Positions 32,893 to 36,808 of a DNA stretch of 64,000 nt are shown piece by piece. Positions within the stretch are counted from its first letter, which is position 1. Every line of letters starts with the position of its first letter. Under the pieces are notes generated by a model. It ran no database searches and was not told where the DNA came from. It saw only the letters and a program-made list of their open reading frames with translations. A program made the translations under genes and the position numbers. The DNA lies in NCBI GenBank assembly GCA_021604145.1, contig BQIX01000001.1, positions 186,001 through 250,000 on the forward strand. Reading direction: 5' to 3'. This stretch comes from Nitrospirales bacterium (GTDB taxonomy: Bacteria > Nitrospirota > Nitrospiria > Nitrospirales > UBA8639).

Positions 32893-34266
32893 ATGGTTCA
32901 AGACCCAAATCGAATTCTGATCGTTGATGACGATCCAGAGATGCGAAATGTACTCCGTGATATTTTACTCGATCAATCCTATCATGTTGAAACAGCTCAA
33001 GAGGGACGAGAGGCTTTGCAACGACTTGCCAACCAACCATTCTCTATCGTCTTGACTGATCTTCGAATGAAAGGGATGGATGGTTTAGAGCTCCTTCAAG
33101 AAGTCGCGAAGAATCATCAAGAATGCAACCTTATCATGATGACAGCATTTGGGACCGTTGAAACGGCTGTTGAAGCTATGAGGAAGGGAGCTTTTGATTA
33201 CCTCACCAAGCCGATTAAGACGGAAGAGCTTTTGGTGACGGTTGATAAGGCTATGCGCGAGGCACTGTTGCGCCGTGAAGTTAAGTATCTTCGAAAGCAG
33301 GTATATCGGGAATTCTCGTTTGATCAAATTCTCGGAAAAAGCAAACCCATGCGTGAGGTGTTTGACCTTATTCGTCGTGTCGCCGATTCACAAACGAATA
33401 TCTTAATTACTGGAGAAAGTGGAACAGGCAAGGAGCTTGTGGCCAAGGCTATTCATTTTAATAGCCAACGTCAGTCAGCTCCCTTCGTTCCAGTGAATTG
33501 TGCGGCCATTCCCGAGCAATTGCTCGAAAGCGAATTGTTTGGTCACGTGAGGGGCGCATTTACGGACGCCAAATCGGATAAACGGGGTCTGTTCGAGGAA
33601 GCACAAGGCGGCACACTCTTTCTGGATGAGATTAGTGAATTGCCCATGATGCTTCAAGCCAAATTACTTCGAGCAGTGCAGGAACGAGAAATTCGACGAG
33701 TTGGTGCCACTCGCTCTAGCCCTATCGATGTCCGGATCATTGCCGCAACAAATGTGAAGTTAGAGGAAGAAGTGAAAGCCAAGAATTTTCGAGAAGATCT
33801 CTACTATCGGTTAAATGTAATTGAAATTCGTCTCCCAGCGCTTCGTGAACGTAAGGAAGATATTCCACTATTAGTTCAAGGGTTACTTGAGAAAAGTATT
33901 GCTGGACAGCAAAAGAGCATCCATGAAGTCGTCGAAGGGGCTCTTGCTCGATTATTGGATTATCAATGGCCAGGGAATGTTCGAGAACTTGAAAATATCA
34001 TTGAACGGGCTGCCACACTTTGCCCAGGAGAAAAAATCACCCTGGAGGATTTACCTCCGGTCATTCGTGAGGTCCGAGGTGAAGGGCAATTGGTTGAAGA
34101 TGCGGTCGATCGAATGCTTCCCTTAGAAGAATTAGAGCAAACGTACATTCGGCGAATTCTTGAAAAAATGGGTGGTAATAAATATCAAGCGGCTCAAGTG
34201 TTGGGAATTGACCGGAAAACTCTGTACAGGAAATTAGGTGAAATGGAAGAGAGGAGTAAAGTCTAA
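32893..34266 (+). CDS. NtrC/AtoC-family sigma-54-dependent response regulator
   Basis: 457 residues. The receiver domain starts RILIVDDDPEMRNVL, with the phosphorylation Asp in VLTDLRMKGMDG. The AAA+ domain has Walker A GESGTGKELVAKAIH, the sigma-54 contact loop as GAFTDA rather than GAFTGA, and Walker B GGTLFLDEISELP. A Fis-type HTH ends the protein (GGNKYQAAQVLGIDRKTLYRKL). It activates sigma-54 promoters after phosphorylation. The matching PAS kinase is downstream, past an inserted four-helix-bundle gene. Five good sigma-54 promoters within about 9 kb are its likely targets; that link is inference. Confidence 0.93.
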   Translation: MVQDPNRILIVDDDPEMRNVLRDILLDQSYHVETAQEGREALQRLANQPFSIVLTDLRMKGMDGLELLQEVAKNHQECNLIMMTAFGTVETAVEAMRKGAFDYLTKPIKTEELLVTVDKAMREALLRREVKYLRKQVYREFSFDQILGKSKPMREVFDLIRRVADSQTNILITGESGTGKELVAKAIHFNSQRQSAPFVPVNCAAIPEQLLESELFGHVRGAFTDAKSDKRGLFEEAQGGTLFLDEISELPMMLQAKLLRAVQEREIRRVGATRSSPIDVRIIAATNVKLEEEVKAKNFREDLYYRLNVIEIRLPALRERKEDIPLLVQGLLEKSIAGQQKSIHEVVEGALARLLDYQWPGNVRELENIIERAATLCPGEKITLEDLPPVIREVRGEGQLVEDAVDRMLPLEELEQTYIRRILEKMGGNKYQAAQVLGIDRKTLYRKLGEMEERSKV

Positions 34267-34278
34267 AGTATAAATATG

Positions 34279-34313
34279 AGTTTCAAGTTTCAAGTTTCAG
34301 GTTCAAAGTTTAA
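34279..34313. repeat. Left flank of four-helix-bundle insertion (TTTCAAG/TTTCAGG repeat)
   Basis: Repeated TTTCAAG units lead into GTTTCAGGTTCAAAGTTTAA. The inverted counterpart is at 34743-34777, on the other side of the four-helix-bundle gene. A related run lies at 36734-36778 after the kinase gene. Confidence 0.6.
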
Positions 34314-34334
34314 TGTTAAAGCGTAGGAGAACAA

Positions 34335-34724
34335 TTGGGAAAAGTTGAATGCTTTGAAGATCTTCAAGTCTGGCAAAAAGCAAGAATACTTTGTCATGAA
34401 ATCTATCATGTGTCTAGCCGCAGAGAGTTTGCTAAGGATTTTGGACTTCGTGACCAGGTTCGGAGGGCCAGTGTATCGATCTTGTCAAATATTGCAGAGG
34501 GTTTTGAGCGAGATGGTTCGAAAGAATTTATTCAGTTCCTTTCACTTGCCAAAGGATCTGCTGGCGAGTTCAGGGCTCAATTGTATGTGGCGAGTGATCA
34601 ATCATATTTGACAGAAAAAGAATTTGATAAATTGAAAGGTCAAGTTCAAGAAGTTATTCGTTTAACAAATGAGCTCATGAAATATCTTCGCAACTCAAAT
34701 CTTAAGGGTAACAAATTCAAGTAA
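34335..34724 (+). CDS. Four-helix-bundle protein (23S rRNA intervening-sequence type)
   Basis: 129 residues from TTG 34335, with AGGAG six bases upstream. The family signature is clear: FEDLQVWQKARILCHEIY, then FGLRDQVRRASVSILSNIAEG and SKEFIQFLSLAKGSAGEFRAQL. These proteins are known from intervening sequences in bacterial 23S rRNA and as orphan genes scattered in genomes; their function is unsettled. Here the gene sits between a response regulator and its kinase and is flanked by inverted TTTCAGG-type repeats. It looks like a mobile or selfish insertion and not a signalling component. Confidence 0.88.
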   Translation: MGKVECFEDLQVWQKARILCHEIYHVSSRREFAKDFGLRDQVRRASVSILSNIAEGFERDGSKEFIQFLSLAKGSAGEFRAQLYVASDQSYLTEKEFDKLKGQVQEVIRLTNELMKYLRNSNLKGNKFK

Positions 34725-34742
34725 TTTTTCAGGTACTTTTAG

Positions 34743-34777
34743 CTTGAGACTTGAACGTGAGACTTTAAACCTGAAAC
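34743..34777. repeat. Right flank of four-helix-bundle insertion (inverted)
   Basis: The reverse complement reads GTTTCAGGTTTAAAGTCTCA and continues with CTTGAAC-like units, matching 34279-34313 in inverted orientation (GTTTCAGGTT-C/T-AAAGT). It ends directly before the kinase ATG at 34785. Confidence 0.6.
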
Positions 34778-34784
34778 AACTAAC

Positions 34785-36725
34785 ATGAATCCTAAATCAA
34801 GAGAAGAACAACTTGAGCATGAATTATTTGCCCTACGTGAAGAGGTGGCCGAACTTCGTGCCATTCATAATATTCATAAGCATACAAAAGAAGGATTGGA
34901 AGCCATTGAGCTTCAGCTTGCTGGGGTCATCCACTCTGCCATGGACGCCATTATTACCGTTGATGAAGCGCAAGAAATTGTCATTTTCAATGCGGCTGCC
35001 GAAAAGATGTTTGGGTGTTCGGCTCCTGAAGTCATCGGCACAACTATTGATCGGTTTATTCCTTTACAATTTCGCGAGAACCATCATCATCATATTGAAC
35101 AGTTTGGCCATGCGATGGTTACAAATCGCCGCATGGGAGATTTGGGCGCTATTTCGGGTCTGCGCACCAATGGTGAGGAATTTCCAATTGAAGCGTCAAT
35201 TTCTCGCGTCGAGGTTTCCGGTCATAAATTATTTACCGTGATTCTTCGGGATATTTCAGAGCGAAAGCTGGCTGAAGAACACATTACACAATTAGGAAGT
35301 TTGCTGGATGAATCCTTAAATGAAATCTTCTTATTTGATGTCGAAACATTAAAATTTGTCCGGGTCAATCGTGGGGCACAGGAAAATCTTGGTTACTCGA
35401 TGGAGGAGCTAAGTCAGATGACCCCAGTGTCTTTGAAGCCAGAGTTTACCCATGAAACGTTTGGAAAGCTTATTCAACCATTGAGAGCTGGCACCGTTCC
35501 AAGGATTGAGTTTCGTACGAAACACTGTCGAAAAGATGGAACGCACTACCCAGTTGAGGTTCATCTCCAACTCGTGGCTCATAAATCGACTCAGGTGTTT
35601 GTGGCAATCATCCTTGATCTCAGCGAACGGCTGAAGGCTGAAGCAGCCTTGCAAGAAACTCAACGAACCTTGTCCACCTTGATGAAAAATCTTCCAGGAA
35701 TGGTCTATCGATGTACGAATGATACTGGTTGGCCCATAGAGTTTATAAGTTCCGGGTGTCACCTGCTTACGGGATATTCGCCTGAAGATTTTGTCAAAAA
35801 CCGAAAGGTTTCTTACGGTCGAGATGTGATTGCACCAGAAGATCGAGAGCGAATATGGAAAGAAGTTGAAGCTGCGAATGCAGAACGTCGATCTTTTCAA
35901 TTGTCGTATAAAATACAAACTGCGGATGGATCAACAAAATGGGTATGGGAACAGGGGGCAGGAGTCTTTTCTGCTGATGGAACCCTTTGTGCGTTGGAGG
36001 GCTATATCTTTGATGTGACTCAAGTAAAAACTCTGGAAGATCGACTTCGAAAGACGGAACGACTCGCTGAGTTAGGTACGTTAGCGTCAGGAATGGCCCA
36101 TGAAATCGGCACTCCCATGAACGTCATCTTAGGACGTGCCGAATTCTTGATGAGAAAAAGCTCTGATGAGAATACGAAGAAAGGGCTGGAGACAATCGTG
36201 ACACAAGTTGAGCGTATTACCAAAATCATGAATCAATTGCTCAGTTTTGCGAGAAAGCGACCAGTTGAACGTCGTCCTCTTGACCTTGCCACGATCATTT
36301 TGACAACACTTGATATTATGCGAGAACGCTTGAATACTCATCAGATACAGGTTGAGACGGATATGGATCCCGACAGGCCACATGTCTTTGCTGATCAAGA
36401 TCAGCTTAGTCAAGTCCTCTTGAACTTAGTCCTGAACTCATGTCACGCCATGCCTGAGGGTGGCACTCTTCGAATCGCTATTGGGACTAGCAACAACCTA
36501 ATGCATCTGACCCTTTCAGACACAGGCAGTGGAATCAAGAAAGAAGACCTTTCCAGGCTTTTTGATCCCTTTTTTACAACCAAACCAGTTGGAGAAGGGA
36601 CAGGGTTAGGCTTAACGGTCGTCCATGGCATCATTCAAGAGCATGATGGGTTAATTCGTGTGGAGAGCGAACTTGGGAAGGGAACTGCCTTTCATATTTT
36701 CTTGCCAATTTATCACTCTGGTTGA
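34785..36725 (+). CDS. Soluble PAS-domain sensor histidine kinase (NtrB/FixL-like)
   Basis: 646 residues, with no transmembrane segment. A short coiled coil (LEHELFALREEVAELRAIH) leads to three PAS domains: about residues 45-165 (AMDAIITVDEAQEIVIFNAAAEKMFG), 170-285 (EIFLFDVETLKFVRVNRGAQE) and 300-415 (GMVYRCTNDTGWPIEFISSG, ending in a PAC motif). The kinase core has the H-box LASGMAHEIGTPMNVILGRAE, N-box NLVLNSCHAMPEGG and G-boxes DTGSGIKKED and GEGTGLGLTV. It probably phosphorylates the upstream NtrC-type regulator. With no membrane span, it must sense a cytosolic signal such as redox state, oxygen or energy status; which one is not evident. Confidence 0.92.
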   Translation: MNPKSREEQLEHELFALREEVAELRAIHNIHKHTKEGLEAIELQLAGVIHSAMDAIITVDEAQEIVIFNAAAEKMFGCSAPEVIGTTIDRFIPLQFRENHHHHIEQFGHAMVTNRRMGDLGAISGLRTNGEEFPIEASISRVEVSGHKLFTVILRDISERKLAEEHITQLGSLLDESLNEIFLFDVETLKFVRVNRGAQENLGYSMEELSQMTPVSLKPEFTHETFGKLIQPLRAGTVPRIEFRTKHCRKDGTHYPVEVHLQLVAHKSTQVFVAIILDLSERLKAEAALQETQRTLSTLMKNLPGMVYRCTNDTGWPIEFISSGCHLLTGYSPEDFVKNRKVSYGRDVIAPEDRERIWKEVEAANAERRSFQLSYKIQTADGSTKWVWEQGAGVFSADGTLCALEGYIFDVTQVKTLEDRLRKTERLAELGTLASGMAHEIGTPMNVILGRAEFLMRKSSDENTKKGLETIVTQVERITKIMNQLLSFARKRPVERRPLDLATIILTTLDIMRERLNTHQIQVETDMDPDRPHVFADQDQLSQVLLNLVLNSCHAMPEGGTLRIAIGTSNNLMHLTLSDTGSGIKKEDLSRLFDPFFTTKPVGEGTGLGLTVVHGIIQEHDGLIRVESELGKGTAFHIFLPIYHSG

Positions 36726-36808
36726 TAAACAATAGTTTCACGTTTCAAGAATCAGGTTTCAGGTCTGAAGTCTTAAGTCAACAATCCTAACTTTAAACTG
36801 TATACAAA

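Follow-up and report, generated by a model that had tools for sequence, protein, structure and literature searches.

An IVP-family gene between inverted heptad arrays in a regulator-kinase operon of a Nitrospirales bacterium, and its probable place among small mobile elements

The window, which was the whole stretch of 64,000 nucleotides analysed, came from a draft assembly (G000; 4.77 Mb in 633 contigs). Within it, a sigma-54-dependent response regulator (32893 to 34266, forward strand; Pfam Response_reg, Sigma54_activat and HTH_8) lay upstream, and a histidine kinase with PAS (34785 to 36725, forward strand; Pfam PAS, HisKA and HATPase_c) downstream, of an IVP (S23p) four-helix-bundle gene (34335 to 34724, forward strand). 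The gene had an intact frame of 129 amino acids, with a TTG start preceded by AGGAG. It matched PF05635 (E 3e-36; 124.2 bits, cut-off 33.8) and TIGR02436 (E 9e-34; 115.9 bits, cut-off 24), and its predicted fold (AF2, pLDDT 92.5) matched the solved IVP structures 2gsc (TM 0.78-0.94) and 2rld (TM 0.73-0.88), so that the original prediction of a four-helix-bundle gene between a regulator and its kinase was borne out.

The left flank of the gene held a heptad array with unit AGTTTCA (34279 to 34320, forward strand), with a lag-7 score of 23 over 34257-34320 and clean heptads at 34279-34306, which decayed towards the gene. The right flank (34735 to 34778, reverse strand) held a degenerate inverted copy of the left array, detected from inverted pairs and arm alignment, and alone this weak arm stayed below a lag-run score of 13. 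In the repeat search the arms were 75% complementary across 40 nt (34282-34321 versus 34750-34789), and the local score of the left arm against the reverse complement of the right was 23, with 20 reached by 0 of 136 control pairs. The inverted repeats predicted for both flanks of the gene were thus present, as was the further run predicted behind the kinase: a solo, gene-less AGTTTCA array (36735 to 36779, forward strand; lag-7 score 18), sharing 74% identity with the left array across 47 nt. The left and post-kinase arrays were the sole runs at lags 7-9 scoring at least 13 in the window (shuffled windows: 0/5). The clean word pair, GTTTCAAGTTTCA, gave two overlapping matches and was absent elsewhere in the 4.77-Mb genome, and a scan of the window allowing 3 mismatches gave 17 matches, weakly above chance (shuffle mean 10.2; at least 17 in 4/100 shuffles). 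Array, gene and inverted array together made up a complete element of about 0.5 kb (34279 to 34778, forward strand), as judged from gap comparison in relatives, with limits set by analogy with elements of Nostoc. A second copy of the kinase, 88% identical, occurred on a short contig (C206; L054) that ended inside the 5' part of the kinase, and by eye an array with a different unit occupied the post-kinase position there; the assembly scored 6.7% contaminated and so may be a mixed strain.

Pfam profiles matched the window protein with PF05635 and PF22296 (bAvd) only, the latter at 21.8 bits and below its cut-off of 40, and no transposase or enzyme domain was found by them. The predicted fold also matched Avd (4dwl) and the DGR particles 8ube/8ub7, more weakly than the solved IVPs. 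With the window protein as query, 50,697 phage records gave 0 matches. Part of PMC4990558 describes another IVP protein, XCC0516, as a homopentamer. Pairwise dN/dS was 0.01-0.41 in the 15 pairs out of 16 for which it was computable, moved pairs included (14 at or below 0.26). By these ratios the IVP protein is under purifying selection, and it therefore works for something.

The regulator-kinase gap measured 521 nt in G000 and 19-413 nt in 16 other family genomes in which it was readable, none of which had an IVP gene there (0/16). The spacing comparison that the original prediction called for therefore went in its favour, and the gene was not seen at this spot in distant relatives without repeats. 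G023, the nearest relative (same genus), kept both arrays without the gene in a gap of 208 nt. No arrays were present in G024 and G021, also of the genus, whose gaps measured 49 and 19 nt. Array-like stretches of different words were found at the gap in G045 (run 13) and G033 (run 10). The IVP family was present in 22 of 48 genomes in the family-wide search.

A catalogue of the flanks of the family genes in G000 had also been proposed: the two matches above cut-off stood beside heptad arrays, with differing units, and a third match, below cut-off (25.7 bits), had no arrays. The second IVP locus of G000 (L002/L055, contig C140) had ACGAGAT-type arrays and lay beside a gene that by eye was pilC-like, and the IVP loci L009, L011 and L012 of relatives also adjoined a pilC-like gene (by eye). 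In genus g10 (L004-L008, L013, L020, L021, L023), IVP genes recurrently preceded a cheA-like gene (by eye); some of these copies were broken by stops or frameshifts, and words differed (L004, L005).

Loci were collected from 295 genomes of the phylum, from the best 80 of 586 confirmed named loci, a set biased to relatives of the window protein, and from four multi-copy genomes; 40 further copies were picked from among the best E-values, and strong matches were therefore over-represented. A lag run of 14 or more counted as an array, and windows 600-800 nt away served as controls. Array counts used 162 non-redundant loci out of 206 (excluding the masked flank on the left of L113), the arm-pair test 148 of 184 records (those whose flanks were short or near-identical, that contained N or that the HMM covered poorly were dropped), and the word-protein test the 126 of 162 loci with at least one array and a gene without stop.

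IVP matches occurred in 181 of the 295 sampled phylum genomes, with up to 11 copies each. At the 162 IVP loci, arrays were called on the left in 98 and on the right in 81, mostly with period 7 and in a range of mostly 7-9 nt, against 10/155 left and 3/154 right control windows and 0 in shuffles. At least one array was present at 110/162 IVP loci compared with 44/192 other intergenic gaps of the same loci (odds ratio 7.1). The association was not exclusive, because at the threshold used 52/162 IVP loci were without an array and 44/192 other gaps had one; heptad arrays, though found without IVP too, are strongly concentrated at IVP loci, and they accompany this gene family generally, in many bacterial phyla. 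The left arm matched its own right arm in inverted orientation with a score of at least 20 in 76/148 loci, compared with 1.4% of cross-locus pairs and 0/136 control pairs. The median number of copies per array was 5.4 and 5.6, on which the threshold imposes a minimum. At one locus, L233, the arrays ran in the same direction.

Between co-directional neighbours, the IVP gene was in sense at 114 loci and antisense at 5, while 21 loci had neighbours on opposite strands and 22 lacked, on one side, any called gene in the nearest 600 nt, all counts resting on simple ORF calls and not on curated genes. L304 and L306 were antisense to both neighbours. At sequence level, movement of the element is mostly into sites between genes of the same operon, in sense orientation. 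With most copies in sense within operons, their expression probably comes from transcription that reads through from the host promoter. L306 (43-2748; Nostoc edaphicum pNe_5) had AGTAGGG arrays and lay between nrdB and nrdA, the ribonucleotide reductase subunits. In an Armatimonadetes locus (L103), the left flank (300 nt before the IVP gene) was an array of the GGTAACGGCGG type with a period of about 9, with no clear right partner. An element with AAAAGCT arrays was located between cas6 and cas4 in Pseudanabaena galeata pPg_01 (L307:92-2256). A figure legend on CRISPR-associated proteins in PMC10910872 names 23S rRNA IVP, and elements such as the cas6-cas4 copy may explain its appearance in that CRISPR-association screen.

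Elements 75-95% identical were found in unrelated flanks, with similarity stopping at or near the arrays, in the pairs L086/L212, L018/L022, L184/L204 and L068/L178, and also within one genome (L089/L219); the cases L086/L212, L018/L022 and L089/L219 belonged to Nitrospirota. A site filled in G072 had no gene in G053, whose flanks were about 90% identical, and held in G063 a decayed copy that retained the arrays and the first codons. The gap in G053 was not a bare empty site, because a small hairpin of another word was present there.

Plasmids provided filled and empty sites with clean ends for the class, the relatives of the window copy being too diverged for this. Twenty-six plasmid records matched, of which six were read, together with eight further matches from follow-up searches. 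In Nostoc, a 418-nt IVP element of pC052_D separates two genes whose spacing in pNsp_c is about 4 nt. Conversely, pNsp_c carried a 506-nt insert, consisting of arrays, another IVP and a tail, where pC052_D had overlapping stop and start codons. Flanks were near-identical between the two plasmids and arrays were absent from both empty sites. Three further plasmid matches were empty at the second (506-nt) site, with the junction inspected in one. The 418-nt element recurred at other sites in Aulosira and, at a site common to both, in Trichormus and Scytonema; on the right these copies stop at one and the same base of the query, and on the left their ends fall within 18 bases. Only short, ambiguous matches were found by eye as target-site duplications at the Nostoc junctions, none of them clear. 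For the class, these comparisons show at sequence level that the gene travels together with its arrays, as a single unit, between sites that are not homologous. The suggestion of a mobile unit, drawn originally from the splitting of a two-component operon, was thereby strengthened by the gene-less gaps in relatives, the class-wide arrays and the clean reciprocal empty sites in Nostoc plasmids.

Gene-less copies were also frequent. Within the collected loci, 88 arrays lay more than 300 nt from an IVP gene, and their similarity to IVP arrays was 0.462 at their own locus versus 0.218 at other loci, the own locus ranking first in 33/88. One copy (L310) was a deletion derivative that retained both element ends, and in the Nostoc N6 plasmid pNPM1 (L311:780-961) a 182-nt array-only element with the same word was nested inside the resident IVP gene. 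The G072 locus as query had 76 matches in G063, mostly short matches to its arrays. In G063 (L288, L294, L296, L297 and others), dozens of gene-less GGCACAGAGG arrays were dispersed, several of them linked to arrays of a second type, GAATCGGTG. At sequence level, gene-less array copies are thus shown to arise and spread and to be able to interrupt other copies, and the post-kinase array of the window fits the solo-array pattern.

The 127 period-7 arrays had 100 distinct words, most of which held a fixed GT (T 0.89 and G 0.73 at adjacent positions, above the shuffled null). IVP copies within one genome had different words, and a reading of the arms as single-sequence TIRs was rejected for this reason. 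Similarity between arrays was correlated with similarity between IVPs (Mantel r 0.27, 126 loci; 0/2000 permutations), also for the 56 named loci across phyla (r 0.266; 0/2000 permutations) and once pairs with homologous neighbours were taken out (r 0.25 over 7666 pairs; 0/2000 permutations). Mean array similarity was 0.359 for same-clade IVPs in unrelated neighbourhoods (487 pairs), 0.199 for IVPs of different clades in the same genome (29 pairs), and 0.210 for the remaining pairs (7150). By these comparisons the word tracks the protein clade and not the host genome. The closest IVPs to the window protein had the words AGTTCCA, GGTTCAA, AGTCCAA and similar, and another clade had AGCTNTC. At one site in Flavobacterium, arms were of the AGTAGCTG type in two species and of the AGGTTCTA type in three, and the words had switched jointly on both sides.

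The window copy is probably one of a widespread kind of small (0.4-0.5 kb) mobile element, in which an IVP gene lies between inverted arrays of a 7-9-nt word. We propose that an IVP ring would bind its own word, whether in single-stranded nucleic acid or in DNA, and that bound IVP would mark the element ends for a mobilising enzyme, perhaps one of the host and not encoded by the element. If IVP marks ends for an enzyme acting on word-framed DNA, array-only copies would therefore be movable in trans. The logic would match REPIN-RAYT, except that the transposase is replaced by a protein that is not one. Several observations weigh against this explanation. Neither a catalytic domain nor a mobilising enzyme was found in the analysis, the right arm of the window copy was weak, and no target-site duplication was clear at the Nostoc junctions. 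Orthologues at the same site had low dN/dS and persisted both in Flavobacterium and in Nitrospirota, which also fits a resident useful gene. The agreement of word and protein could reflect co-descent instead of binding, but at protein similarities of 0.45-0.6 unconstrained DNA should no longer agree.

Inverted arms could alternatively pair in the operon transcript and be cut by RNase III, the element being an IVS borne on mRNA and an RNA processing module whose mobility is incidental. The arms did fold around the gene (z -2.67, for a single sequence), 114 of 119 copies between co-directional genes were in sense, and in Coxiella the rRNA IVS, with heptads before the S23p ORF, is cut by RNase III in the stem, according to a part of PMC4990558. 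Mismatches between arms had no G-U bias (213 wobble-type versus 209 non-wobble transitions; p 0.88; 100 loci). This reading was demoted because the wobble test was flat over these 100 loci, and it also sits poorly with copies antisense to both neighbours (L304 and L306 included), with the same-direction arrays of L233 and with the commonness of single solo arrays; we regard it as unlikely.

Persistence at one site raises the further case of a domesticated operon gene, by which IVP would regulate its host operon through the arrays and presence or absence would reflect gene loss. Same-site copies in Flavobacterium were kept with a dN/dS of 0.05-0.13, and the sense orientation agrees with such a role. 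The host genes were unrelated, however (regulator-kinase, cheA-like by eye, nrdB/nrdA, cas6-cas4 and plasmid genes), empty sites were clean, one of them with overlapping stop and start codons, and copies with stops or deletions exist, which makes domestication a rather improbable account.

The fold matches to Avd (4dwl, 8ube/8ub7) and the 21.8 bits with PF22296 would suit an accessory of a retroelement, DGR or other, IVP being the Avd-like companion of the reverse transcriptase by which the element is copied. The bAvd score was under the cut-off of 40, however, and RVT_1 occurred in 74/181 genomes with IVP versus 39/114 without (Fisher p 0.27), with no RVT_1 match in 28 of 53 genomes with at least 5 IVP genes. 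G000 had one RVT_1 match, and G123 and G233, with 5 IVP genes each, had neither Y1 nor RT among the matches listed. Dependence on a reverse transcriptase was rejected, as IVP and RVT_1 were unassociated across the 295 genomes, and an accessory role of this kind is improbable.

Growth of the arrays by slippage as simple-sequence repeats, among which IVP genes merely land, is disfavoured and highly improbable: heptad repeats are over-represented in many bacteria (in the sections of PMC4692102 consulted) and arrays occurred in 44/192 other intergenic gaps, but the arms are inverted copies of one word, the word tracks the protein clade across genomes, arrays arrive with the gene and are missing from empty sites, and element ends are constant at different sites.

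We class the window copy as a gene of the IVP family within a mobile, IVS-like unit that lies outside rRNA, and a new class of mobile element is a possibility. The rRNA IVS and the orphan heptad repeats are probably parts of the same system. A bolder and tentative proposal is that IVP elements form a new phylum-wide mobile class, in which a non-catalytic ring would recognise a clade-specific seven-letter word at both ends and recruit a host enzyme that copies or inserts whatever DNA the word frames, with rRNA IVS, the heptads of cyanobacteria and Xanthomonas and the TAACTGA of Beggiatoa as parts or remnants, and perhaps with five protomers corresponding to about five words. The IVP family, with structures solved, would gain a concrete target in its own flanking word. 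Heptad repeats variously described as regulatory signals, G-quadruplexes or strain markers would come under one account, which would also cover the heptamers of the Coxiella rRNA IVS. Should the mobilising step be found, this would be a mobile element without a known transposase or reverse transcriptase, whose protein-to-word code can be read off the sequence. The mobility of IVS, an old question, becomes testable in laboratory cyanobacteria.

Among known systems, the 23S rRNA IVS of Leptospira and Coxiella resemble IVP elements in protein family, a unit of about 430 nt, inverted ends and a single ORF, as far as described in the consulted part of PMC4990558. The same part calls rRNA IVS selfish and their mobility unproven, and reports for Coxiella tandem GACAGAT heptamers before the S23p ORF, in a strain-variable number. 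The likeness extends to the window copy, with its S23p ORF between inverted ends. In contrast to the rRNA IVS, IVP elements lie between protein-coding genes, the window copy between a regulator and a kinase and not in rRNA, and they are flanked by arrays on either side, occur many times per genome with different words, and show clean plasmid insertions.

Orphan heptad repeats described apart from any protein resemble IVP arrays as tandem 7-nt words in intergenic DNA, partly in inverted pairs. Excerpts of the respective papers report GGGAATC in Xanthomonas, with inverted pairs, and GGGGA(T/C)T in Nostoc (PMC4692102), intergenic TAACTGA in Beggiatoaceae, with speculation that a repeat-binding protein is the mobile element (PMC4679880), and intergenic MTYCTGA sites, mostly paired, in Geobacter (PMC2700814). 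The term S23 was absent from the text available of the Beggiatoaceae (PMC4679880) and Geobacter (PMC2700814) papers, as was 23S from that of the Xanthomonas paper (PMC4692102), and no link to IVP was made there. For Xanthomonas, GGGAATC arrays would be predicted beside XCC0516. No general link between IVP genes and heptad arrays was found in the open-access literature, subscription papers and preprints being outside its scope.

The DGR accessory Avd (PDB 4dwl, 8ube; PMC10053308) has the same fold as IVP, going by the fold matches, but IVP falls below the bAvd cut-off and had no association with reverse transcriptase in 295 genomes. Solo copies are similar to MITEs in being small, inverted-ended and gene-less, and differ from them in that their ends are arrays of variable words with no clear target duplication. 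We know of no parent transposase for array-only IVP elements. REPIN-RAYT systems differ in that RAYT is a Y1 HUH transposase, whereas IVP folds as a four-helix bundle and matches no transposase. They nonetheless resemble IVP elements in the arrangement of one protein gene with inverted cognate repeats around it and many gene-less repeat copies, and this combination of cognate inverted repeats and gene-less copies was strongest in G063.
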